This document shows positions 1 through 17,932 of a stretch of DNA of 20,801 bases, piece after piece. The translations under genes were made by a program, and so were the position numbers. The notes under the pieces were generated by a model that saw only the letters and a list, made by a program, of their open reading frames with translations, did no database searches and had not been told where the DNA came from. This DNA is from a virus, in the IMG/VR virus record IMGVR_UViG_3300020473_000157, positions 1 to 20,801 of that record. One strand, 5' to 3'. The stretch's first letter is position 1, and the number at the start of each line of letters is the position of its first letter.

Positions 1-182
1 TCCAACGGATTGGTATATGTTAACATGTCCTCAGGACAATTATCCCTCACAAAATGCAATACATTCATAAACTCTTCAACCGTTTCACACTCTACTGTTC
101 TTGCCTCTCCTTCATCTGAATATAGGTGTACTTTCCGTTGAAGTGTATCAATCACACAACGAGAAAGGAAATCATCTTCCAT
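1..182 (-). CDS. Partial conserved phage hypothetical protein (N-terminal 60 residues)
   Basis: The minus-strand frame is open from an ATG at 182 to the window edge and begins MEDDFLSRCVIDTL. The visible part is acidic, with a predicted beta stretch followed by a helical stretch (VEEFMNVLHFVRDNCPED). From memory it resembles small hypothetical proteins of T4-like cyanophages that start with an M-x-D-DFLxRC pattern. I know of no function. AAGG lies 6 nt before the ATG and serves as the ribosome binding site. The gene lies just downstream of a consensus sigma70-type promoter, with a leader of only about 18 nt, so it is probably expressed early and separately from the structural operon upstream. 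The C-terminus lies outside the window. Confidence 0.75.
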   Translation of the reverse strand, partial: MEDDFLSRCVIDTLQRKVHLYSDEGEARTVECETVEEFMNVLHFVRDNCPEDMLTYTNPL

Positions 183-206
183 TGTAAACCTTATATAGGT
201 CTGACT

Positions 207-235
207 ATTATATCACAACTAGTCTTCGGTGTCAA
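207..235 (-). promoter_or_regulatory. Consensus sigma70-type promoter
   Basis: On the minus strand there is a perfect TTGACA (-35, 235..230), a 17-bp spacer and a perfect TATAAT (-10, 212..207). The -10 is preceded by TG one base away, so it is also an extended -10. The -35 lies within the last codons of the 75-residue gene (Leu-Asp-Thr). The predicted start is near position 200, giving a leader of about 18 nt before the ATG at 182. In T4-like phages such promoters are read by unmodified host RNA polymerase and drive early genes. It marks a boundary between the late structural operon and an early unit to the left. Confidence 0.85.
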
Positions 236-446
236 GGAGATCAGCCATGATCATATAATAGCAATCAACGGGTAACACTTTAGTTTGTAAATGAACCTCT
301 CTTCCCTGAACTCTTTTCACTACTAAACCTTGTGGTGCTCCCACTTCAGTCAAATGAACAGTTATCGTAGACATATCCACCAATTTTTCCCATTCTTCTG
401 GAATGGTTATAACTGATTTCTGTGTTCTTCCATGTAAAAATTCCAT
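219..446 (-). CDS. Small virion-associated protein matching the C-terminal domain of the 340-residue structural protein
   Basis: This is a 75-residue protein. It aligns along nearly all its length with residues about 234-305 of the protein at 1971-2993. Both have GR near the start, then an [IV]xxPExW..LVD motif, (T/S)ITVxLTxxG, and a late CxYxx. It therefore looks like a free-standing copy of the small beta domain that ends many marine phage tail-fibre and structural proteins. Its own function is unknown; a partner or cap for a fibre or spike is a reasonable guess. The SD AGGAG lies 6 nt before the ATG and overlaps the last codons of the 507-residue gene, whose stop is one base upstream of this ATG, suggesting coupled translation. 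Its last codons carry the -35 box of the next promoter. Confidence 0.8.
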   Translation of the reverse strand: MEFLHGRTQKSVITIPEEWEKLVDMSTITVHLTEVGAPQGLVVKRVQGREVHLQTKVLPVDCYYMIMADLLDTED

Positions 447-447
447 A

Positions 448-1971
448 TTATGCTCCTGTAGGTGGTATAGATTTATCCATTACATTTCTAATTGTATCAT
501 CACCTAAGTAAGTTCGTAAAGTAGCAAGTCTATCCATATCCTCATTTTGTTGACCAATAGAAACTCTCATGCCCCATATCCTTAAAGAATATTTTTCATT
601 TCTTTCTCCACGTAAAGCATTTAATCCATCTACTTTAAGATTTCTAATCGAATTACCTCCAATAAGATCAGTTTCCTTAGTAGATGCAATTCCTACAGCA
701 TCCGTAACAGCAGTATTTAAAGCACTTGAACAAGCAGAAAGTGATCCATACATATCACCAATATCATCCTCATCTACTGTTATCGTAGCACCTTCAATTG
801 CCTTAGTAGCACTTCCTGAACTTGCTCTGGGAAAATTGGAGAATCCAACAGGCCAATAACATACCCCTGAACCAACTCTAGGAGGATAAATTATCTCTTC
901 TCTATTAGGATCCATCGACACGTCCCAACCATTCAAATTAGGATCCCATCCCATGGCTGCAGTAGGATAACCAGAATTATCTAATGCGATGGATACTCCA
1001 ATACCAAGATTGGCAGTTTGCATTATTCCTACAGTTTGAGGAACAAAAGGATCTTTTTCTTTATTAATTTGATATAGATATCTTCCAGTGTTAACAACAG
1101 TATCAGGATCATCTATTACCTCAAATGACCCATAAGTTCCATTAGTCTGAGGAGCTTTAACACTTTGAAGAGCACTATTATTAAGAGTAAGAATATTAAC
1201 AAAAGAAAGACTAGTACCAATACCCACCAATGAATCAATATCACGAAGATCAGTAAGACCTGTAGAAATACCAGTAATCTTTGTTGTTCCAGAAAAAACA
1301 CTATCTAGTTCGGGAACAATAATTTGACCAATTTCCAAAACGTCAGACACACCTGCACCCACAGGATTCATTACGGTTAAGTTATTACTTCCTTGAGTTA
1401 TAGTTCCAATAAAACTAGTTACAAAAGTATTACCAATATCCTCCGAATACGGTTCATCATAATATTTTAAACCATAATAATTTCTAGGATCAAATCCAAA
1501 AGTATACCCCACCCCAAGGCCTCTTTCATTTTGAAAGTTTATTGGAAAAACCTCAATACTTGCATTTGGACGCAATAAGATAACAGTATTACCAAAGTAA
1601 TTAGGGTCATCAAGGTCTGATGGATATGTAAAATCGGATTTTTGAGTATATCCTCCTGGAGTTAATTTAGTACATTCGAGATCATATTCAACAGGGTCCA
1701 CAGAACCATTAATATTAGTAACTCTCCAAAATAAATCAGTTTTACATATACCTGCAATTCTATCTTTATAAGCCGTTTCAACATCATTAAATGCTCTATT
1801 AACTACATTAGTTTGTTCCAATAAATTAGCATCAAGTCTCCTAATAGACTCATCATATGGTACTTTTTCATTATCTAGAATTTTTACTTGATCCTGAAAA
1901 AATTCAATTTGCTCCAATGCAACTTGAATACTTTCACTACAATTCTGAGATATATCAGTTGCTAATCCCAT
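448..1971 (-). CDS. Virion structural protein, 507 residues
   Basis: This is probably a tail or baseplate component with no T4 counterpart that I recognise. The N-terminus (about 1-80) is helical and likely coiled-coil. Residues about 85-400 look beta-rich with many Gly, Asn and Asp turns. Residues about 400-507 are helical again and include a repeated Ala/Thr-rich helix and an Arg-rich tail. Residues about 184-245 contain a GTIxxGSNNLTV...IGQII...GTTKITGI pattern that also occurs in the giant spike protein near residues 546-598. The ATG overlaps the stop of the preceding gene (TAATG), and AAGGAGG lies upstream, so translation is coupled. The position after the spike genes and the composition indicate a structural role. 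Confidence 0.75.
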   Translation of the reverse strand: MGLATDISQNCSESIQVALEQIEFFQDQVKILDNEKVPYDESIRRLDANLLEQTNVVNRAFNDVETAYKDRIAGICKTDLFWRVTNINGSVDPVEYDLECTKLTPGGYTQKSDFTYPSDLDDPNYFGNTVILLRPNASIEVFPINFQNERGLGVGYTFGFDPRNYYGLKYYDEPYSEDIGNTFVTSFIGTITQGSNNLTVMNPVGAGVSDVLEIGQIIVPELDSVFSGTTKITGISTGLTDLRDIDSLVGIGTSLSFVNILTLNNSALQSVKAPQTNGTYGSFEVIDDPDTVVNTGRYLYQINKEKDPFVPQTVGIMQTANLGIGVSIALDNSGYPTAAMGWDPNLNGWDVSMDPNREEIIYPPRVGSGVCYWPVGFSNFPRASSGSATKAIEGATITVDEDDIGDMYGSLSACSSALNTAVTDAVGIASTKETDLIGGNSIRNLKVDGLNALRGERNEKYSLRIWGMRVSIGQQNEDMDRLATLRTYLGDDTIRNVMDKSIPPTGA

Positions 1972-2993: not shown

Positions 2994-3626
2994 TTATAAT
3001 GCACTCTTTGCTAATTTTGCAAAAGCTTTACCATATTGCTCAACAGTTATATTACCAGTACCAGGAAGTTGAAAGACATCTCCTCCTTCAATCACTTTAA
3101 AACTTCCTACATTTTCTTCAAGTTTACCTGGAGTGTTTATATCAATATCCGCATCAGCTGACATTGACATTTTACTATCTGCAGTCATCTTACAATTTGT
3201 TGCTTCTACATCAAAATTTGCATTTGCTCTTACATTAACATATCCAGTACCATCACCATCACCAGTTGAGATAAGATCAATAGACTGTGCTGTTATTCTT
3301 ATTCTTCCTTTAGGTGCATGAATATTAATATCACCATTTTCTGCGTACCATACACCTGCTACATCATTAACAGGTGCTTCCCCACAACTAATTTCAAAGA
3401 CAGAAGGAGTACTACAAAGAATAGCACCATCCAATGCTCCTCCTTGCTGAAGAGCTACATATTGAGCACGTTTATAAGGAGAAGGGAAAATACGACGAAG
3501 AGCAACTGCCATCTTCGCATTATTCTCCATTACATGACCATAATAGGTTCCACCCTCTGTGGTACAAAATTGGTTCTTTTTATAAGTCTTAGCTTCCCCT
3601 TTAATTTGTTGTTGTGTATTTGACAT
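2994..3626 (-). CDS. Beta-helix-like spike protein, possible separate gp5 C-terminal needle
   Basis: This is a 210-residue protein. Residues about 97-170 show alternating short hydrophobic beta strands (GDINIHAP, GRIRITAQSIDLIS, YVNVRANANFDVEA, KMSMSADADIDINTP). This is the pattern of the triple-stranded beta-helix that forms the T4 gp5 and VgrG needle. Residues 1-96 are a conserved-looking head and 170-210 a small helical tail. The gene overlaps the stop of the 2113-residue gp5-like gene by one base (TAATG, with GAGGT as SD), so the two are probably made together. I infer that OB-fold and needle, fused in T4 gp5, are on separate or additional polypeptides here. A general baseplate role is safe; the needle assignment is tentative. 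Confidence 0.65.
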   Translation of the reverse strand: MSNTQQQIKGEAKTYKKNQFCTTEGGTYYGHVMENNAKMAVALRRIFPSPYKRAQYVALQQGGALDGAILCSTPSVFEISCGEAPVNDVAGVWYAENGDINIHAPKGRIRITAQSIDLISTGDGDGTGYVNVRANANFDVEATNCKMTADSKMSMSADADIDINTPGKLEENVGSFKVIEGGDVFQLPGTGNITVEQYGKAFAKLAKSAL

Positions 3627-6600
3627 TATGTTACCTCAGTTTTTGCATTTGGTCCTACATTACCCACGCAATCAATTACCTGAGTAACTACCGTTCCTTC
3701 AGGAAACTCATTAAGATTTTCCCGATGACTCTTTAAAACAGGAATAAGAAAAGCATTGAAACCAGTTTTAGTATTTATATAGACCTCAGGAAGTTCTGTA
3801 AATCCAGCACCACACTTAGTTACTCTAACTCTTATAATACCACCATCACACTCTTCAATGACTGCTTCTGCACCATTAGAAGGTTCAATGACTACGGTAT
3901 CATCACAACAATTATAACCAAAACCAGGATTTGCTACAGTAATCTGATCTAAACATAAAATAACTCTATAAGTAGTACTTGAAGGACAGGTGGTAGGAAC
4001 AATAGGAACACATACACCATTCTCTTTTTGATATCCTGGAGGACAAGTATCCTCATTAGGTATACAATCACCGTTAGGGCCCTTATGGTAACCTGGAGGA
4101 CACTCATCATCAGGAGGAGGTATAGGTCTACATGTACCTCTATCAAAATAATATCCTTCAGGACATGGATCCTTCTCCTTCTCAGGGCAATCAGGAGCAG
4201 TTAATCTAACACTGAAATCGGCACACTTACCCCAATTTTCATCATCCAATTTTTCTTGCATACATCGATCTACTGCTATCCCTTGAGATTCGATAAAGTG
4301 TCTTATATCACAATCACTATACCCTAAAAGTTTCGCATTAAGATAATCGGGTTCGCAACCAAAAATTTCAGGTATTTCTGGGTCAATATTATCATCAAGA
4401 ATTTCATATGGAGCAATAGCATAATAAGTCTTAGTATAACTCTCAGTTTCTTCTATAGTATTTTGGAAAGGATCCAAAGAACTTCTAATAATCTCACCAG
4501 TACCAGTTATATTAGTAGGATAAGATTGACTTCTTATCTCAATTTTCTCTTGACCTATAACAGTTCCTTCTAAATTAACACTCTTAGTCTCAGTTCCACT
4601 TCTACCAGATTGTGTCCAAGTTACAGATCCTATCTGAATGGTTTCTACTGCCACTCCTGCAGTACTTACTCTATCATTCCATTCTAATCTGAGAGTTATA
4701 TCACCTGTTCCTTCAATTCGATTAGCACCATCAATAAATTTTGCATTTCCTCCAATAATAGTAAATCGAGCATTGCAATCATTACCATCACCATCCTTTA
4801 AACATAAACTATTACCAGCATTTTCAACTAAAATAGGATCATTCGCAGCATTCAACCCAGTATAAGTAATATCATGCTTTGATTCGACAATATCCCTAAA
4901 TTCAAAACTTATATTGGTCACAAGTTCAGCAGGAGGGGGAGCTTGCCCCTTTCTAAACACCCATCCTAATGCACCAGGATTAGTGTCAAGGCCCTCTTCT
5001 CCTCCTCGTTTCTGATTTATAATAGAAGCTTCTATTGTAAATGGAGTAGGTAGAATCTTACCCTCATCATCTTTGTTTAAAGATTCCTCTTTTATCTCAA
5101 TTTCAAAAAATGTAGATCTATTGTGAGATTTAAACACAGTCGTAGATCCTAAAAATTTACCATTAAAAGTAATACTTGCCTGATTGTCTGACTGAACTTC
5201 AAAATAATAATCTCCTACATCCTGCAGTAAAACTTCCCAAATTCCTATTTGAGGAATATTAACTAGTGTCTCCGTAGAAGATGGCCAAACTCCATAATTT
5301 TTTAAGAAAGGAGACCAACCTTGAGAATCACTAAGTACCCAATTCTCAGCAGGTATAATATCTGCTACCCTATACCATTCTTGTGGATCTACTGTTAGAG
5401 ATATTACTTTTTTCTCTTTATATTCACCTACTCTATAAATTAAATTTTCCGACCTTCTAACTAATTGAGGAATTTGAGAAAAATTATTTTGAACAAAAGA
5501 TCCTATATACTTTCCATCCTTATAAAACCACCACTGAGCAATTCCAGCTGGAAAATCAGGATCACTACCATCAATTCTTTCAATATAAGTTCCTTTAGCA
5601 TTACCTGATAAGAAAACAAGATCACGCTCTATCCCCCTCAGTCCACTTGGAGTCCATGTTTTAGGACCATTTAATCCATTAATGGTTATACTTTCAACAG
5701 CAACTCCTGCAACATTTGGATCGTCTTTCCAAACTAAAGCAAACTGCACATCAACATAATCACCCTGAACCACAATACCTCTACCATCAGGTGTAAATTT
5801 TGCAATTCCCCCATTCACCTCTTCAATTTCAAAATAAGCATTGGTGTCAAGACCATCACCGTCCCTTAAAAGAATTTTAGTTCTATTATTAGTTACCGTA
5901 AGACTAGTATTTGTAGAATTCAATCCTGTATAATCAATAGTAATCGGGTTTAATTCAGGTTCAACATATAATTCAGGTTCTAATTTTTGAGTATTTTCAT
6001 AATTAATCTCATCCCCTTCATTCTCTACATACTCAGAAAGAGGAAAATCTGACATATCTCTAGGTTTTATTGCCTCCCCTATTATCAAAGAGCCTGGAAT
6101 ATCACTTACCTCAAAATCTTCATTAATACAAATCTCCTCCTTTGCTGGAAGAGTGATGCAATCTCCAGGAAATAATTCAATAATTTCACCAGTAGTATAT
6201 GGAACATCCCAATCTCCATTACCACGATGCACAATAGTTTGACATCTCCCTGCCCATGTTCTTTCCATTCCACCTTTAGAACCATCAGGCCATGGTAGAT
6301 AACCATATCCAGTTCCTGATAATTCCACTCTAACTACCCCTATTCCTTCTTTCTTCACAATTGTACCAAGATTACAAACAGGTGTAATAATATCTCCTAC
6401 TTGATAATTCTTTCCACCATTACTTACTTGAACTCCAGTAATGTTACCAACATCACCCACATTAACAATATTGAAAGCTAAAGAAGTTCCATTACCTCCC
6501 ACAGTCAACATATTAGTTGCACCTGCACCATATCCCGAACCTCCTCTCAATAAAGTAATTGCTATAACTCTACCATCCTCTCCAATATCATTAACTCTTA

Positions 6601-9600
6601 TGGTTGCATTACGACATCCCATCTCCTCATCAACTTCATCTTCTCCATCTACAATATTAATCTTTGCTCCCATCTTAGGATGATTTTCGCAGTAATAATA
6701 TAAAGTATCAGGAGCATTATTATCCACATCAATTTGAACAAATGCATTAGGATCTCCAGGTAGACCTGCTTTAGTAACTCCAGTTGTATATTCTGTACCG
6801 CAATTTTCAAGAACTGCTTCAGGATCCTCTGCAAAGGGTTGAGTAGAATTTGCAAACGAAATTGTACCATCAAGATTTGTTACTTCCCATGCAAGAGCAG
6901 CTGGATTGTTATTCCAATTCCGTGATATCCTACCCATTTGACGGAGTTCTTCCCATGTCCTGCGAGTATTTTGAATGGTAGCTGTTAATATATGTTTCTT
7001 CCCACTTTCAAAAACTTCAAACTCAAAATACTTAGGAGTATTATGAGGACCACGAGAAAGATCTTTATAAGATACCGTTTCTTCAGTAAAAGTTCCACTT
7101 TCTATTTCAGTTAATTTAATAGTCTCAGTTTGTCTACCCGATCCACCCCTTTGAAACCATGTAGTACCTCCAATAGTAATACTCTCCAGAGCAACTCCCG
7201 CTATACCAGGATTATCCCCCCAATTCAATGTTAAAGTTACAGTTCCTGTTCCTTCTATGTCTATTTGAGTTGGATCAGTAATAAGTCCATCAGCACTTTC
7301 AGATTCATCAGGATTAGGAAGCGTTTTCACTACAAAAAAAGCATCCCCACTATCAATACTAAATGTAGCATTGGTATCATTTCCATGCCCGTCTTTTAAT
7401 TCAAGTTTTTTACCATTCTCTTTAATTACCTGACTTACTGGAATATTTGCCGCATTTAAATTACTAATACTCAAAGTTTGTTTTACAGGAGCAACCTCAT
7501 TAAATACTCTATTCGTTTTAGTACTAGTAGGTATAGGGTCCGTAGCACCTAGATAAATTCCATTCCAAGATACTGTTCCTAAATTATCTGCTTGAATTTG
7601 AACTCTATAAGTTCCTGGTTCAGGAATTATAATCTCCCAGTTTCCTGTATGAACTCCAGGTAAAACCTTATACTCTGGATAAACTCCATATGCCTGTAAA
7701 AAGGGTGACCATCCCGCCGAAGCTGTTAAAACCCAGTTATCAGAAGGCATACCCAGTCGAGACACCAACCAATCTACTGGGCCTGCATCAGTACTGGATC
7801 TATCACAATTATGAATTCCATCCGATTTTTCAGAAAACCTTAAAGGATGCCGATTAATTTCCTCATACTCACCAGTAGAAATTTCCCCAAAAGGATCTTC
7901 ACCTTTCATTAAAACTAATTCATCTATACCACCCTGAAGAATGAACCCATTAGAAGGACTAGATTGATCAAACCTATAACTCTTTCCTCTTTCTAAAGTA
8001 ACAACTCTTTGTTGACGATCATCTATAACATATCTATTACCGCTAGGATTTTTCTTAACGGACACATTAAAAGTAGTAATACCAACAGGTTCTTCAAGAT
8101 CAAATCCAATAATATGAAATTGCATATCCCCAACACTACCATCACCTTCAATCCTTCTATTAAGAATAATCCTATCACCCGTAACATCAATAATCTTAGT
8201 TCCTGCTGGAATAGATGGTGAATTGGAGAGTTGCATAATGCTTCTACCCACCAAATCTATATTATTTTGTATAGGAGCATCAGGCAATAAAGTAAAACCA
8301 CTTATATAATTCGTTCCTGAAACAATGGTTCCTGCGAAATCACTAGTAATTACCGTAGTATCAGTCTCTACAGGTCCAAGAATAGCTTTCCCTACTGCCC
8401 CTCTTCCTTTACCGCAAATATCTACAATACTTACATAAGGTGCTTGAGTATAACTTCCACTTTCCACGATATCCACATGTGCCACTTGTCCCGTCTCAAC
8501 AGAAACAACAGCATTTCCTTTTGCTCCAGACCCTGTTCCACCCCAGAAACTAACTTGAGGAACACCACATTCTATAGGACCAGTATCACATTGATCTAGA
8601 GTATTAGCCGCTGCTTCTTGAGGGTCAAATTTAAATTTATACTTACTAATATTTTTTGGAACTTTAGTAAGTTTTTGAAATTTTTCTCCAACTACTTTAG
8701 CCTTATTAAAAATATTACCCGTATTTAAAGTAATTTTTACGGGACTACCCCCATCTAAAAAATTCCATTCTTTTACAACAGGATCATCTTGAGAGGGACT
8801 GACTTCACAATTCAAAAGATCCATTATAGAACCTAAAACATCCCCAATAGAACCTAAAATATCAGTTGCTCCACCAAGAACATTAGAAATAGTTCCTATA
8901 ACACCATTAATTAATGCAGATAATTGACCAACAATTTGTCCAACAAAATTAGATACAAAATTTTCTATCAAACAACTAGCAGTATTAACAACTTTATTAA
9001 TAACTGAAAGCAAACCTTGACCAACAAGATTTGGCATCTCCGCTATTGAGAGATTAAAGGCACAAGAAAGAGCTTTAATTGCCTGATTTATTAATTTATT
9101 ATTAGCAAACTTACCTGATAACGGAAAATTAGCTGTCACCAAATTCATTGCCGTATTAAGTTTTCTAAGGAACTTTTTCTGAACCTTAGCCATAATAGTA
9201 TTAATATATCCACTTATTAATTTTACTTGCTTACTAAGTGCCTGAGAAATTGCTTCAACAGACCTCTCTGCATTATCAAGAGTTTCTAAACTTTGTCTCA
9301 AAGCACTATTACTTCCTATCAAATCCTTTTTTAATTTTTCAACATCTTTTATTGCATTTTCTATTGCAGAAGACATTCCTCCTACAGTATTCTTTGCACC
9401 ATCTAACACTGGAAACTGCCACTTTGCTTCATCTCTAGGAGTATTCTGAAGATAATCTGCATATGATCTCCATGAAACATTAAACTCTTCATTTCCTGGT
9501 ACTAATGCTCCATCCAGCCAATTAAAATCAGGTACAGGATATAAAGTATTTGATGGATCAAAACCACTTAAAGGAGTATAAGCTTGCTCTGCAGTTAATG

Positions 9601-9967
9601 GTAAATTTTTTACAGTATTGGGAGCAACTCTCTCGATAAAGTATTCATTTGATTGAAGATCTTGTGTTACATATACAAATGTACCACGAGGATATGTAAC
9701 TGTACCAATAGACTCTCCTCTTAATCCTGAGGTAGAATTTTTAGGATATGCCCAAGGCAATGCAGGTGAAGGTACATCTGCATTATGAATTCCAAATAAC
9801 CTTATTTTATATCTGATTAAATGAGTCTTTTGATCATCACTAAACTTTGTATCCTGTTCGGTTTTAACCGTGCTGATATCATCCGCAATCTGGGCCAGTT
9901 GCAATCTACTGTGACCCAGTTGCTCTTCTACTAATCTTCGTGAGTATCTTTGGATTTGTGATTCCAT
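3626..9967 (-). CDS. Giant multidomain baseplate hub/spike protein with N-terminal gp5-like OB-fold, 2113 residues
   Basis: It is likely the central spike platform. Residues 1-50 are helical. Residues about 48-120 match the gp5/VgrG OB-fold pattern (YKIRLFGIHNAD, LPWAYP, then TVTYPRGTFVYV). Residues 195-265 look coiled-coil, and 290-390 form a Gly-punctuated hydrophobic helical stretch. Beta modules follow: GSG-type repeats (464-535, 1118-1235, 2000-2080), a split cupredoxin-like fold (628-720 and 1055-1106), two beta-sandwich copies, three copies of a roughly 120-residue module, and a Cys-rich segment (1927-1988). No lysozyme domain with the T4 gp5 active site is visible, and no signal peptide. 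It follows the gp27-like hub gene, as expected if the two interact. The start ATG is 6 bases past the previous stop and has no clear SD. The structural role is secure; the exact position in the virion is inferred. Confidence 0.8.
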   Translation of the reverse strand: MESQIQRYSRRLVEEQLGHSRLQLAQIADDISTVKTEQDTKFSDDQKTHLIRYKIRLFGIHNADVPSPALPWAYPKNSTSGLRGESIGTVTYPRGTFVYVTQDLQSNEYFIERVAPNTVKNLPLTAEQAYTPLSGFDPSNTLYPVPDFNWLDGALVPGNEEFNVSWRSYADYLQNTPRDEAKWQFPVLDGAKNTVGGMSSAIENAIKDVEKLKKDLIGSNSALRQSLETLDNAERSVEAISQALSKQVKLISGYINTIMAKVQKKFLRKLNTAMNLVTANFPLSGKFANNKLINQAIKALSCAFNLSIAEMPNLVGQGLLSVINKVVNTASCLIENFVSNFVGQIVGQLSALINGVIGTISNVLGGATDILGSIGDVLGSIMDLLNCEVSPSQDDPVVKEWNFLDGGSPVKITLNTGNIFNKAKVVGEKFQKLTKVPKNISKYKFKFDPQEAAANTLDQCDTGPIECGVPQVSFWGGTGSGAKGNAVVSVETGQVAHVDIVESGSYTQAPYVSIVDICGKGRGAVGKAILGPVETDTTVITSDFAGTIVSGTNYISGFTLLPDAPIQNNIDLVGRSIMQLSNSPSIPAGTKIIDVTGDRIILNRRIEGDGSVGDMQFHIIGFDLEEPVGITTFNVSVKKNPSGNRYVIDDRQQRVVTLERGKSYRFDQSSPSNGFILQGGIDELVLMKGEDPFGEISTGEYEEINRHPLRFSEKSDGIHNCDRSSTDAGPVDWLVSRLGMPSDNWVLTASAGWSPFLQAYGVYPEYKVLPGVHTGNWEIIIPEPGTYRVQIQADNLGTVSWNGIYLGATDPIPTSTKTNRVFNEVAPVKQTLSISNLNAANIPVSQVIKENGKKLELKDGHGNDTNATFSIDSGDAFFVVKTLPNPDESESADGLITDPTQIDIEGTGTVTLTLNWGDNPGIAGVALESITIGGTTWFQRGGSGRQTETIKLTEIESGTFTEETVSYKDLSRGPHNTPKYFEFEVFESGKKHILTATIQNTRRTWEELRQMGRISRNWNNNPAALAWEVTNLDGTISFANSTQPFAEDPEAVLENCGTEYTTGVTKAGLPGDPNAFVQIDVDNNAPDTLYYYCENHPKMGAKINIVDGEDEVDEEMGCRNATIRVNDIGEDGRVIAITLLRGGSGYGAGATNMLTVGGNGTSLAFNIVNVGDVGNITGVQVSNGGKNYQVGDIITPVCNLGTIVKKEGIGVVRVELSGTGYGYLPWPDGSKGGMERTWAGRCQTIVHRGNGDWDVPYTTGEIIELFPGDCITLPAKEEICINEDFEVSDIPGSLIIGEAIKPRDMSDFPLSEYVENEGDEINYENTQKLEPELYVEPELNPITIDYTGLNSTNTSLTVTNNRTKILLRDGDGLDTNAYFEIEEVNGGIAKFTPDGRGIVVQGDYVDVQFALVWKDDPNVAGVAVESITINGLNGPKTWTPSGLRGIERDLVFLSGNAKGTYIERIDGSDPDFPAGIAQWWFYKDGKYIGSFVQNNFSQIPQLVRRSENLIYRVGEYKEKKVISLTVDPQEWYRVADIIPAENWVLSDSQGWSPFLKNYGVWPSSTETLVNIPQIGIWEVLLQDVGDYYFEVQSDNQASITFNGKFLGSTTVFKSHNRSTFFEIEIKEESLNKDDEGKILPTPFTIEASIINQKRGGEEGLDTNPGALGWVFRKGQAPPPAELVTNISFEFRDIVESKHDITYTGLNAANDPILVENAGNSLCLKDGDGNDCNARFTIIGGNAKFIDGANRIEGTGDITLRLEWNDRVSTAGVAVETIQIGSVTWTQSGRSGTETKSVNLEGTVIGQEKIEIRSQSYPTNITGTGEIIRSSLDPFQNTIEETESYTKTYYAIAPYEILDDNIDPEIPEIFGCEPDYLNAKLLGYSDCDIRHFIESQGIAVDRCMQEKLDDENWGKCADFSVRLTAPDCPEKEKDPCPEGYYFDRGTCRPIPPPDDECPPGYHKGPNGDCIPNEDTCPPGYQKENGVCVPIVPTTCPSSTTYRVILCLDQITVANPGFGYNCCDDTVVIEPSNGAEAVIEECDGGIIRVRVTKCGAGFTELPEVYINTKTGFNAFLIPVLKSHRENLNEFPEGTVVTQVIDCVGNVGPNAKTEVT
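4004..4189 (-). repeat. Cys-rich CPxGY repeats near the C-terminus of the giant protein
   Basis: Residues about 1927-1988 contain three tandem units of C-P-[EP]-G-Y, 4-7 residues, C-x-P (CPEGYYFDRGTCRP, CPPGYHKGPNGDCIP, CPPGYQKENGVCVP) linked by Pro/Asp/Glu-rich spacers. This resembles small disulfide or metal-bound knots. Disulfides would be unusual for a protein folded in bacterial cytoplasm. Confidence 0.75.
4532..4879 (-). repeat. Beta module repeat 3 of 3 in the giant protein
   Basis: Residues about 1697-1812. It has YTGLNAANDPILV, the KDGDGNDCNARF loop, IEGTGDITLRLEWND, AGVAVETIQIG and WTQSGRSGTETK. This is the shortest copy and the closest to repeat 1. Confidence 0.75.
4946..5347 (-). 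repeat. Beta-sandwich module, copy 2 (uninterrupted)
   Basis: Residues 1541-1674 run from ENWVLSDSQGWSPFLKNYGV through FNGKFLGST and FFEIEI to NPGALGWVFRKG in one piece. This matches both halves of copy 1 and shows where copy 1 is interrupted. Confidence 0.65.
5567..5950 (-). repeat. Beta module repeat 2 of 3 in the giant protein
   Basis: Residues about 1340-1467. It has YTGLNSTNTSLTV, the RDGDGLDTNAYF loop, VQFALVWKDDPNVAGVAVES and a closing TWTPSGLRG, aligning with repeats 1 and 3 along their length. Confidence 0.75.
6875..7741 (-). repeat. Beta-sandwich module, copy 1, itself interrupted by a repeat module
   Basis: Residues 743-1031 open with NWVLTASAGWSPFLQAYGVYP and close with NNNPAALAWEV. 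Between WNGIYLGATD and YFEFEVFESGKKHILTATI lie about 155 residues that contain repeat module 1. The intact copy is at residues 1541-1674. The pattern (xWxPFLxxYGVYP, TYRVQIQADNxGxVSWNG) recalls PA14-like or carbohydrate-binding sandwiches, but this is only a resemblance. Confidence 0.65.
7064..7492 (-). repeat. Beta module repeat 1 of 3 in the giant protein
   Basis: Residues about 826-968. Shared landmarks are an introductory LNAANIPV, a KDGHGNDTNATF loop resembling an Asp/Asn-rich cation site, an IEGTGTVTLTLNW strand, AGVALESITIGG, and a closing W-x-x-x-G-x-S-G turn. It lies inside beta-sandwich copy 1. Confidence 0.75.
8798..9085 (-). other. Hydrophobic, Gly-punctuated helical region of the giant protein
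   Basis: This encodes residues about 295-390. It is a long run of apolar residues with regular Gly, Asn and Ser breaks (for example VGQIVGQLSALINGVIGTIS) and almost no charge. It could be a buried helical bundle or trimeric coiled stalk, or a segment that enters a membrane. The sequence alone does not decide between these. Confidence 0.5.
9608..9826 (-). other. gp5/VgrG-like OB-fold domain in the giant protein
   Basis: This encodes residues about 48-120. The order of motifs follows T4 gp5: a KIRLFGIH strand (T4 has VRVVGLHPP), a loop to LPWAYP (T4 has LPWMSV), a Gly/Ser-rich stretch, then PRGTFVYV (T4 has VEGTRVYG), and later a GFDPSNTLYP (T4 has GFSDPTGQYP). In T4 this domain sits on the gp27 trimer. 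I compared the sequences from memory, without a computed alignment. Confidence 0.65.
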
Positions 9968-9973
9968 TAGTTA

Positions 9974-10243
9974 TTAATCGTCGTATACCCTACACTCTAA
10001 AGAATCAGGGTGGTTATCACAATAAACTTCTAAGTGTTGATCCTCATGCCTTGTATGCCAATCATTAATCTTACCTTCATTCTTATCTACTTCATCATCA
10101 CTATGAGCATGAAAAGCATCATTGTGCATTTCTAAATCTTCTTTACTGTACTCTAACATACCATGATTGATATGCTCTTTCCCATCTTTAGGGTCAAGAT
10201 ATACTTCGTGGTTCAAATTGTGATCGGGGGTTTTAGTTGTCAT
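9974..10243 (-). CDS. His-rich, acidic small conserved phage protein, 89 residues
   Basis: It has 11 His in 89 residues, many Asp and Glu, and a C-terminal YCDNHPDSLECRVYDD with two Cys. From memory this C-terminal pattern resembles tails of small hypothetical proteins in T4-like cyanophages. No PAAR motif is present, so it is not an obvious spike tip like gp5.4. The SD GGAG sits 7 nt before the ATG, giving a well-defined start in a 27-nt gap after the gp27-like gene. The spacing to the giant spike gene is only 6 bases, so the two are co-translated or at least co-transcribed. Metal binding is plausible from composition only; the function is unknown. Confidence 0.75.
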   Translation of the reverse strand: MTTKTPDHNLNHEVYLDPKDGKEHINHGMLEYSKEDLEMHNDAFHAHSDDEVDKNEGKINDWHTRHEDQHLEVYCDNHPDSLECRVYDD

Positions 10244-13590: not shown

Positions 13591-15708
13591 TTATCCTCCT
13601 ATCAAATCCTGAATACCTAATGACGCTATCACCATAGATCTTTGAGAAGATACTATAGGAATTCTAAACTCAGGAATATCATTTTTAGTCATCTCCATTT
13701 TCTGATCTTGTTGTTGTTTAGGTATAGTAGGTAAAGTAATTGTTCTATTCGTAGATTGTACAATTGGAGTTCCTACGGGTTCTTTCATCACATCTCCTAC
13801 TACTCCTCCATTTTCCAAATATTGAACTACTCCACCTTGATTATATTCTTGAGTAATTGTTGGGACATTAGTTCCTCCACCAGCTGCATTCATAGAAGCC
13901 AAGGTATTGACTCCAAACTTCTGAACTGCACCCTTACTCATCACAAACTCTCCTGCAGTCAATCTTGCAGGAACTTTATCTACTCCACCAGGTCCAGATA
14001 CAAAACCACCTTGTTTATAATTTTTAATTTTAGTAAGATTATTATAAGTCTCAACTAATCCACCACCCTTAAAGTTTTGATAATTATTAACTAATCCACC
14101 ACCCTTAAAGTTTTGATTAAAAGAACTATAACCTTTTACACTGTTATCAGAATTTATTAAATTATTATCCTGTAGAAATTGCATATTAACAGCACGTTCT
14201 TTAGCATTAGAAACTGCCTGTGCATCACTATTCTGCAGTATGGGATAAAGAACTTCAGCATCGATACCAGATGTTCCATTAACAATACTTTCTATGGTTG
14301 TTCCTTGAGGTAATTGAGAAAGAATTTGCTCTTGATGCTCATAAAGATCTTCAAGTTTAATAGAACCTTGAGTTTTTTCTCTAGTCTTAGTTCTTTCTAT
14401 TTCACCTCCCTTTACCACCTTTTCCGTCTTAAATTTCTTTAAACTATAAACCAATTCCTTATCAACCATTCCACCTTCATTAAAGTTTTGAACTAATCCA
14501 CCTTCATTATACCTTTGAACAAAATTCTGAGCTGATTTTTGATCATTATAATGTTGAACTAAACCACCTTCATTAAAATTAAATCTTCCCATACTATTAC
14601 CACCTAAAGGATCATTCATCCCTGTTTGAAGCATATTAGTATTGGATCTTATATTAGTATCTCCTTCTGTCATTTTATTAACATTACTAGTCGTTACTGA
14701 CTGACTTAATACTTCTGCATCACCAGCACCCATCCCTTCATCTTGAAGTTGTGTTGATGATTGATTCTGTGCTTCTGCTAGATTCTCTCCTTCTTTATCA
14801 CCACCTAAATTCTTCGCAAGGCTCGTTACACCCCACACAGCAAGACCCGTCCCTACTAGTGCTAATGCTGCATAAGGATTGGCAGCTATTGCAATTACCA
14901 ACTTAGGAATAATAGCAGTTAGAAGACTCACTACTCCTGCCAATAATCCACCCAAAGGAGTAAGCCATAACGCTGCTGCAGTTGCTAATGCAGGCCACCA
15001 ATCCTTAAAGAACTTACCAATTCTTTGTGCTTTTTTCTGATTCTTTGGATCCTTAAACCAATCAAGAGTGTCATTTAAAAGCACTCCCAGTAATGTAAAC
15101 TTAAGAAACTTAATTAAAGCATCCCAAATACTCTGGAAAGGAGATAACAATGCCTTAGCAGAACTTCCAATTAGACCTAATGATTTTTTAAGGCCTCCTC
15201 CTTCTAACTTACCTTCTCTTTTCTCTCTTTTATCTTTTGCTTCTTGTTTCCGAGCATCTCTTGCTTCCTTTCTATCACCCTTAAAATCTAAACGCAATAC
15301 CTTTAATATATCATCAAGAATATCTCTTATTCCTTTAAGACCTTCTGTTTCTTGCTTCTGTTCCTCTCCTTCAGGTAAAGATAGGTCAGGAGTCGGTGCT
15401 GGAGGTTTATATGGAACAATAGAACTTGTACCCGTAGCATCTGCTTTTACAGGTTCTTCTTTTTTATTTAAAAAATTTTCTTTAAATGATTTAACATCTA
15501 TTTTTTTTCTTCTTAACTTAAGTTCTTTCTTTGCCTCATCTTGAAGAAGCATCACATAATCTTTATTATATTCACCACCTAGACTTGGATCCTCTGCAAA
15601 ATCCATGACAGCATTACTTAATGCCTTATGATATGGAGTATCGTCATCAAGATATCCATACTCTACAAGGATGTCTAATGGTTCAGTAAGTTTTATAGAA
15701 CTAGGCAT
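13591..15708 (-). CDS. Tail tape measure protein (gp29 counterpart), 705 residues
   Basis: It would act as the ruler and scaffold inside the tail tube and reach the hub. Residues 125-170 form a charged coiled coil (KEARDARKQEAKDKREKREG). Residues 190-300 hold hydrophobic segments. The C-terminal half carries eight GG[LMFV]V motifs, each after an N-[FY]-type stretch, and the tape-measure signature GGFVSGPGGVDKVPARL followed by GEFVMSKGAVQKFG at 567-598. The start overlaps the gp51-like gene by 8 bases with no strong SD, so it is probably coupled. Its length is within the range of T4 gp29 (590 residues), and it is encoded after gp26/gp51 as in T4-like tail clusters. The tape measure call is firm; equivalence with gp29 is inferred. 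Confidence 0.8.
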   Translation of the reverse strand: MPSSIKLTEPLDILVEYGYLDDDTPYHKALSNAVMDFAEDPSLGGEYNKDYVMLLQDEAKKELKLRRKKIDVKSFKENFLNKKEEPVKADATGTSSIVPYKPPAPTPDLSLPEGEEQKQETEGLKGIRDILDDILKVLRLDFKGDRKEARDARKQEAKDKREKREGKLEGGGLKKSLGLIGSSAKALLSPFQSIWDALIKFLKFTLLGVLLNDTLDWFKDPKNQKKAQRIGKFFKDWWPALATAAALWLTPLGGLLAGVVSLLTAIIPKLVIAIAANPYAALALVGTGLAVWGVTSLAKNLGGDKEGENLAEAQNQSSTQLQDEGMGAGDAEVLSQSVTTSNVNKMTEGDTNIRSNTNMLQTGMNDPLGGNSMGRFNFNEGGLVQHYNDQKSAQNFVQRYNEGGLVQNFNEGGMVDKELVYSLKKFKTEKVVKGGEIERTKTREKTQGSIKLEDLYEHQEQILSQLPQGTTIESIVNGTSGIDAEVLYPILQNSDAQAVSNAKERAVNMQFLQDNNLINSDNSVKGYSSFNQNFKGGGLVNNYQNFKGGGLVETYNNLTKIKNYKQGGFVSGPGGVDKVPARLTAGEFVMSKGAVQKFGVNTLASMNAAGGGTNVPTITQEYNQGGVVQYLENGGVVGDVMKEPVGTPIVQSTNRTITLPTIPKQQQDQKMEMTKNDIPEFRIPIVSSQRSMVIASLGIQDLIGG
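13595..13600 (-). promoter_or_regulatory. Strong ribosome binding site for the 646-residue gene
   Basis: AGGAGG lies 8 nt before the ATG at 13586. It is made from the last Ile-Gly-Gly codons of the tape measure gene, so it decides the start and couples the two genes. Confidence 0.75.
14053..14116. repeat. Perfect 28-bp direct repeat with 36-bp period
   Basis: Copies are at 14053-14080 and 14089-14116. They encode a 12-residue tandem duplication in the tape measure protein (NFKGGGLVNNYQ then NFKGGGLVETYN). The near-perfect DNA identity suggests a recent duplication or gene conversion. Confidence 0.9.
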
Positions 15709-17479: not shown

Positions 17480-17932
17480 ATGGGAGAAAGTAAAAAGAGT
17501 TTCTTCAGACCCACTTTTCCCAAAAAATACAAGGGAAATCCGAATAATATTATATGTAGGAGTACGTGGGAAACGAAATTCTGCAACTATTGTGATCTAA
17601 ATGAAAATATTCTTGAGTGGGGTAGTGAAGAATTCTATATTAAATATGTCTCTCCTGTTGATAATCGGTTTCATCGTTATTATCCAGACTTTATTATTAA
17701 AGTAAAAGAAAGTACTGGGCAAATTAAAACTTATGTGATTGAAGTAAAACCCAAGAAACAAACCCAACCTCCTAAAAAGAAAAAGAAAGTGACTCAATCA
17801 TATCTCTATGAATGCAAAACCTATGCAGTTAATACTGCTAAATGGGCTGCAGCAAGAGAGTTTTGTAATGATAGAAAAATTGAATTTAAAATCATTACCG
17901 AACAAGAACTAGGAATATATCATGGTAGATAA
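17480..17932 (+). CDS. 4: Head completion protein gp4 (gp50), nuclease-fold
   Basis: It is 150 residues, the same as T4 gp4. It begins MGESKKSFFRPTFPKKYKGN, with RSTWE at 27-31, EW at 46-47, YYPDF at 67-71 and VIEVKPK at 86-92. The PD...ExK arrangement (D70, E88, K90) matches PD-(D/E)XK nuclease folds and TnsA-like proteins, to which the gp4 family is related. In T4 it is needed to finish filled heads so that tails can join. A late box precedes the gene, but no SD is visible, and the ATG is the first in frame. The next gene overlaps its 3' end by 11 bases. It faces away from the baseplate operon. Confidence 0.85.
   Translation: MGESKKSFFRPTFPKKYKGNPNNIICRSTWETKFCNYCDLNENILEWGSEEFYIKYVSPVDNRFHRYYPDFIIKVKESTGQIKTYVIEVKPKKQTQPPKKKKKVTQSYLYECKTYAVNTAKWAAAREFCNDRKIEFKIITEQELGIYHGR

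Follow-up and report, generated by a model that had tools for sequence, protein, structure and literature searches.

The predicted baseplate-hub protein P0001 of a T4-like marine phage contains a cupredoxin-like domain whose two halves lie on either side of a second domain, A, into which a third module, B, is itself inserted. The protein is encoded in the window, the whole stretch of viral DNA analysed here, whose 20,801 bases cover part of such a phage's tail and baseplate module. The explanation that we favour, at a probability of roughly 70%, is that residues 628–1108 form one cupredoxin fold with nested guest domains and a metal site. Its structural part, that is, the fold, the insertion and the nesting taken together, is well supported and very probably correct.

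Hub gene and genomic setting

Family membership and synteny support the assignment of P0001, which a sequence-only reading of the same DNA had called a hub/spike protein, to the gp5-type baseplate hubs of T4-like marine phages. The family phrog_1922 (baseplate hub subunit and tail lysozyme) matches the whole protein with E 1.4e-46, the best stretch being residues 205–555; for P0001, Pfam gave no lysozyme family at E values of up to 1. For the N-terminal part, the best 15 of 80 relatives are 24–29% identical and belong to Synechococcus or Prochlorococcus phages, except for one from a single-cell virus, with several of them annotated as hub. The gene order of tail protein, CP12-like protein and hub is the same in the window and in Synechococcus phage S-SCSM1; S-SM2 shares this order, but with a separate 616-aa hub gene in between.

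The CP12-like protein (PF02672, E 2.5e-08) is encoded directly upstream of the hub gene, at 9974–10243 on the minus strand. A CP12 gene is found directly upstream of the hub in S-SCSM1 too, and near the hub in S-SM2, and the proximity of cp12 to gp5 is noted in a passage on cyanophages in PMC3037559. The presence of this gene beside the hub suggests a cyanobacterial host. Elsewhere in the tail module, the plus strand at 17480–17932 encodes a TnsA-like endonuclease N-terminal family (PF08722, E 2.5e-23). Comparison with the near-identical virus L127 also brought to notice a 29-base direct repeat with a spacing of 36, located at about 14053–14117 within the ORF 13591–15708.

Two halves of one cupredoxin-like domain

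The first predicted metal ligand, H707, sits in HPLRFSEKSDGIHN (HPLRFSEK at 707), and the other three, C1093, H1096 and M1099, sit in LYYYCENHPKMG (CENHPKMG at 1093), so that first His and Cys are 386 residues apart (Table 1). Translation and profile placement confirm these positions and this gap, both of which had been claimed from the sequence alone. Profiles for the two half-domains were built from 62 uninterrupted domains (set A5 without the hub homologue L020), cut at the insertion point. On P0001, the N-half profile matches residues 629–673 at 42.9 bits and 706–719 at 10.6 bits, and the C-half profile matches residues 1056–1108 at 74.5 bits. When P0001 was shuffled 500 times, no shuffle scored above 4.6 bits with the first profile or 5.5 bits with the second. 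Judged by these placements, the halves are one domain of common origin.

Uninterrupted homologues, for which the sequence-only reading had proposed a search, are abundant: hundreds of marine phage copies were found, and in a scan of viral contigs at least 581 of 600 pattern-matched stretches were confirmed as the uninterrupted domain. Laboratory phages such as MED4-213 and S-H38 are among the cyanophages that have it in this form. The spacing from His to Cys is about 50 in these relatives, and 48–52 in 100 of the 127 C..H..M sites found in the ORFs of the window and of 126 further loci, drawn from phage records and viral contigs, which lies inside the 40–60 previously given as normal. As translated, P0001 has the type-1 copper pattern of ligands, His followed by Cys-x2-His-xn-Met. 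Its short C-x2-H-x2-M spacing, earlier likened to that of amicyanin, is consistent with the engineered amicyanin-loop entries 2vmj (the title of which names the new loop CTPHPFM), 2ux6 and 5u7n of the PDB. We take the CTPHPFM-type loop of 2vmj to be amicyanin's own.

Table 1 Features of the hub gene and of the interrupted domain, in window coordinates
Feature	Residues of P0001	Window position	Strand	Basis
Predicted baseplate-hub (gp5-type) protein P0001	2113 aa	3626–9967	(-)	ORF and translation, phrog_1922, synteny with S-SM2 and S-SCSM1
Cupredoxin-like domain, N-half (model strands 1–5), holds H707	628–720	7808–8086	(-)	N-half profile, AF2 strands
Small insertion (about 32 aa), strand 4 to ligand-His strand	674–705	7853–7948	(-)	Alignments; low model confidence
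First predicted metal ligand	H707	7847–7849	(-)	Translation; His kept in 14/14 pattern-free phage copies
Large insert (about 335 aa), loop between ligand-His strand and next strand	721–1055	6803–7807	(-)	Alignment with uninterrupted relatives; empty site in L020–L022
N-side neck cysteine	C721	7805–7807	(-)	Alignment of inserted hubs
Domain A (PA14/CBM-like, predicted), N-part	741–813	7529–7747	(-)	Profile An 741–812, 124.4 bits; PA14/CBM structural matches
Inner module B nested in A	814–970 (profile core 827–940)	7058–7528	(-)	Profile B, 104.4 bits; further copies
Domain A, C-part	971–1032	6872–7057	(-)	Profile Ac 972–1031, 85.6 bits
C-side neck cysteine	C1056	6800–6802	(-)	NCG[VT]EY in inserted hubs versus GGGDEY in L020 and L021
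Cupredoxin-like domain, C-half (model strands 6–9)	1056–1108	6644–6802	(-)	C-half profile, AF2 strands
Other three predicted metal ligands	C1093-x2-H1096-x2-M1099	6671–6691	(-)	Translation and conservation
Module B copy B2, outside A	1343–1439	5651–5941	(-)	Pairwise scores and profile map
Second, uninterrupted domain A copy (A2)	1538–1674	4946–5356	(-)	Score of A1 N-part against A2
Module B copy B3, in tandem after A2	1695–1787	4607–4885	(-)	Score of B1 against B3 and profile map

Predicted fold of the domain

The AlphaFold2 (AF2) model of the uninterrupted domain of L020, a hub homologue with an empty insertion site, was computed from 53 sequences and is a 9-strand barrel with a mean pLDDT of 90.3 and a pTM of 0.81. 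A Foldseek search with this model gave 12 PDB chains at E <= 0.001, all of them rusticyanins, copper nitrite reductases or the multicopper oxidase McoA, and, lower down, matches to pseudoazurin, laccases, plastocyanin and the amicyanin-loop entries named above. Two of the Foldseek rows are SO1698, annotated as an aspartic peptidase; the PDB matches are otherwise almost all cupredoxins. VIA-align placed the model on 2dv6_A with Z 9.6 and an r.m.s.d. of 2.9 over 103 aligned residues. This model and its mostly cupredoxin matches lend support to the cupredoxin-like fold that had been suggested for the hub.

The AF2 model of residues 625–1112 of P0001, from an alignment of 39 sequences, has a mean pLDDT of 72.1 and a pTM of 0.47, with poor neck regions. 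Five strands are formed by the N-half (E7-16, E19-24, E32-35, E39-43 and E85-88 in model numbering) and four by the C-half (E440-443, E452-456, E464-469 and E477-482). Their lengths are 10, 6, 4, 5 and 4 before the insert and 4, 5, 6 and 6 after it, in the same nine-strand order as in L020, where they are 10, 6, 4, 5 and 4, then 4, 5, 6 and 7. In the second-best VIA-align row, McoA (6ttd_A, chain 387–527) is aligned with model positions 1..483 at Z 7.1, within the range that VIA-align calls common, with an r.m.s.d. of 3.0 over 102 aligned residues. The target stretch in McoA is ~140 residues long, and its alignment with model residues of which the first is 1 and the last 483 points to one barrel from both halves. 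No cupredoxin was among the best 50 Foldseek matches of the window split model; this search with the whole model gave no usable match, unlike that with the smaller L020 model. A single barrel built from both halves is what the models predict. Structure prediction had been put forward as the check on the split, and its outcome, five plus four strands with an McoA alignment spanning both, goes the way of the sequence-only reading; interruption by whole domains is likewise supported by the alignment of relatives, the window model and the strand pattern.

We regard it as very improbable that the halves instead fold independently, for example by strand exchange with neighbouring subunits of a trimer, which would place any metal site between chains. 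T4 gp5-type hub proteins are trimeric, which counts for such an arrangement, as do the low-confidence neck regions of the model. Against it, each half alone would be an incomplete sandwich of 5 or 4 strands, and one cupredoxin domain is matched across the two halves of the split model.

At the level of sequence families, Pfam Copper-bind (PF00127) matched two of the 39 alignment members at E <= 0.1 (best E 0.044), the window member not being one of them, and its curated cut-off was not reached. The PDB profile match was pseudoazurin at E 0.54. Pfam PF25489 (At5g54830) was rejected as the family of the domain because it covers the C half only and falls below its cut-off.

Insertion states across homologues

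Relatives of the hub show the same loop in three states. The window, L002, L003, L015, L016 and L019 carry A with B, with 363–386 residues from His to Cys (L013 and L014 duplicate the contigs of L002 and L003). L004, L017, L018, L133 and the near-copy L142 carry A only (225–230 residues), and L020, L021 and L022 are empty (51 residues). Counted as distinct contigs besides the window, five have a long insert at this loop, four a shorter one and three none. The large insert was anticipated at close to its true size, ~334 residues, by the sequence-only reading, which overlooked both the nesting and the second, ~32-residue insertion. Inserted hubs have such a smaller insertion just before the ligand-His strand; uninterrupted relatives and empty-site hubs lack it.

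A chimeric contig, in which mis-assembly has joined two unrelated tail genes, would be a rival explanation, and the window is indeed a 20801-base virus record whose near-identical counterpart L127 stops before the insert. The hub of L127 ends at residue 499 and therefore gives no confirmation of the insert. Yet independent contigs at 42–54% identity share the insertion point, L001, with ~84% DNA identity to the window over 4,934 bases, runs from A into B before ending inside B, and the reading frame is open throughout 3626–9967 on the minus strand. Mis-assembly was rejected on the homologues with the same insertion and is extremely unlikely; by this comparison of contigs, the arrangement is a domain insertion.

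Each insertion state occupies one side of a branch in a tree built on 17 rows of hub N-termini, including three outgroup rows, with support of 99/99 for A with B, 100/100 for A only and 100/100 for the empty state. The A-only hubs form the sister group of the empty ones (90/90, not starred), so that loss in the empty lineage or module exchange is as possible as stepwise growth. An ordering of the insertion gains was rejected, as the tree gives no order of events. The same loop holds a different insert of ~66 residues, a GILVGM-type module, in another virion protein (phrog_6005; L040–L046; spacing 114–122), and this unrelated insert makes the loop look permissive. Altered first-His motifs, SHEIKF and SHQFSL, were seen in L032–L039.

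Domain A and the nested module B

From residue 628 to residue 1108, the layout is cupredoxin N-half, A N-part, B, A C-part and cupredoxin C-half. The N-part of the inserted copy of A (A1) scores 170 against the second copy, A2 (best of 500 shuffles, 60); the C-part alone is weak, at 49 (best of 500 shuffles, 46). The nested copy of B (B1) scores 209 against B3 (best of 500 shuffles, 58) and 147 against B2 (best shuffle, 65). Each unit of a nested insertion is found outside this arrangement: the cupredoxin is uninterrupted in L020–L022 and many others, A is uninterrupted in A2 and at the A-only sites, and B stands separately as B2 and B3. Module B is missing at the nested site in L004, L017, L018 and L133. 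The idea that B is always nested in A is ruled out by tandem A and B in the second copy in P0001 and in S-CAM22 (L012).

Structural matches of A are PA14 domains and flocculins at Z 4.6–5.3 and the rhamnosidase domain 3w5n at Z 7.6. Profile matches at E <= 0.1 are to CBM_4_9 in 4 of 39 members (best E 0.0056) and to PA14 in 1 of 39 (E 0.035); P0001 itself had no Pfam match to PA14 at E <= 1. Cyanophage proteins with stretches similar to A are annotated as PA14, and the predicted fold of A is PA14-like. PHROG and RefSeq relatives of A and B (window 4946–5356 and 7058–7747) are labelled 'major head protein', probably a carried-over annotation. The PHROG labels (phrog_773, 26970) were rejected as a guide to function, as A and B both lie inside the hub gene.

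Cysteines at the neck of the insert

Two cysteines, C721 and C1056, directly flank the insert, and both are present in 10 of the 10 distinct inserted hubs compared (the window, L002, L003, L015, L016, L019, L004, L017, L018 and L133). The N-side cysteine is also present in L001, which ends inside B. In place of the pair, the empty hubs L020 and L021 have GTWGGGDEY. Among the 99 profile rows that cover the core, the only extra cysteine besides those of the inserted hubs is in L118, in another column. A disulfide between C721 and C1056 at the neck seems rather likely.

Metal site conservation and cellular relatives

The ligand columns had served as search patterns, so conservation was counted on copies found without a Cys/His pattern. 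In the 14 such phage copies, the first His is kept in all, and Cys, second His and Met in 13 each. All four ligands are present in 37 of 43 such cellular copies (first His 39, Cys 37, second His 37, Met 40), with the reservation that some of the cellular contigs, coming from single-cell or metagenome assemblies, may be of phage origin. Of the six cellular exceptions, five are missing both Cys and second His, and the remaining one is cut off before reaching them; the first His is missing in four. Joint absence of Cys and second His is expected for a site that is lost as a unit. First His, Cys and second His are retained in all inserted hubs. The ligand loop of the L019 hub is longer, with a displaced Met (CENHGGIGGIGGM); in that ORF, from residue 1195 onward (CENHGGIGGIGGMGG), the Met lies six residues away from its place in the usual C-x2-H-x2-M.

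ORFs carrying the domain in SAR86, SAR92 and marine group II (MGII) have N-termini that, judged by eye, resemble those of lipoproteins, as in the 187-aa L187. L187, L204, L212, L207, L176 and L182 are lipoprotein-like ORFs whose last domain is this one, complete in its four ligands. The cupredoxin-like domain of these ORFs was matched by no Pfam family at its cut-off. The envelope is a setting where copper sites are usual. Free copper is scarce in the cytosol, where phage proteins fold, and this counts against a copper site in P0001.

These data bear on whether the site works as a metal site at all. The fold could be a purely structural beta-sandwich with inherited ligands and no metal in the virion, the insertion then being a neutral loop expansion at a non-functional site. 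The weak family scores to copper proteins, the 6 of 43 cellular copies without a complete site and the altered ligand loop in L019 all fit that account, but even in copies that were not chosen for the ligands, these rank with the best-conserved columns, Cys and second His are lost in a correlated way, and the inserted hubs keep H, C and H throughout. We consider the purely structural account possible but doubtful, and lean towards a functional metal site in the cupredoxin domain of P0001.

The bound metal might also be zinc or iron, or the cysteine might serve another chemistry, in a structural site like those of phage tail tips. Phage spike tips hold iron or zinc, and copper is generally scarce in the cytosol. 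This is nevertheless unlikely, in that a cupredoxin fold bearing His and C-x2-H-x2-M has the type-1 copper set and the relatives look like envelope lipoprotein ORFs. Copper is the most likely metal for the functional site that we favour.

Discussion

We propose that a cupredoxin loop following the ligand-His strand received domain A, and that A in turn received B. The cupredoxin would close from its two chain ends into a rigid platform on the tail-tip hub, from whose loop the PA14/CBM-like guest A, enlarged by B, may be displayed as a surface- or glycan-binding module. The display role is putative, and for glycan or surface binding by A we see about an even chance. H707, C1093, H1096 and M1099 would make a type-1-like site, most likely for copper, by which the strand preceding the insert is locked to the loop that follows it; together with the probable C721/C1056 disulfide, the site would tie the chain ends that flank the insert. 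A more elaborate version is a metal-gated platform, in which assembly in the host cytosol leaves the metal site unoccupied and the neck cysteines reduced until copper and oxidation close both in seawater or at the cell envelope; we think this improbable. If it were true, closure would fix the orientation of the A/B module on the tail tip, which would become armed only when the phage is outside the cell or at the surface of a host.

In the fold of its uninterrupted homologue and in the order of its ligands, the domain resembles amicyanin, pseudoazurin, plastocyanin and rusticyanin, with the x2 spacing of the amicyanin loop. As opposed to these small type-1 copper proteins, it is part of a virion hub rather than a free electron carrier, its copper site is a prediction, and its His and Cys are 386 residues apart with two other modules in between. 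It belongs with the marine domain of cyanophage and pelagiphage tail proteins (phrog_677, phrog_693, phrog_30742 and phrog_27200), which has the motifs HPLRFS...DG.H, EYTTGV and LYYYC.NH..MG and recurs in marine bacterial and archaeal lipoprotein-like ORFs. Unlike P0001, the other marine copies are uninterrupted, with a spacing of about 50, except phrog_6005 with its ~66-aa insert in the same loop. Domain A, as modelled, resembles PA14 domains (MpAFP, Flo1/Flo5) and CBM-type beta-sandwiches, but differs from them in sitting inside a cupredoxin and in being split by B.

Nested insertions of the form A1-B1-C-B2-A2 are known and have been surveyed, with ndhH as an example and six levels in RNA polymerase (PMC13114784). 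P0001 has the same topology as ndhH, with two successive insertions. That survey reports insertions that are consistently smaller than their hosts, whereas the 335-aa insert of P0001 is ~2x its host (about 146 aa), a cupredoxin in a phage hub; the main text of the survey mentions neither cupredoxins nor phages. In the open-access literature, covered through top matches by title and abstract start, no report was found of cupredoxins in phage tail proteins or of domain insertions in cupredoxins. Nested insertion is thus already known as a kind, and for its occurrence in a cupredoxin we found no earlier report.

A very common, unnamed tail domain of marine phages, also present in marine bacteria and archaea, is hereby identified as a cupredoxin in which the ligand set is complete. 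That set predicts metal in the virions of ocean phages, a property that can be measured. The hubs and their relatives also provide a natural series at one loop, with no insert, with A, with A and nested B, and, in another tail protein, with an unrelated insert. With this series one can ask how insertions twice as large as their host are tolerated by a fold in which the metal site depends on two distant chain ends.
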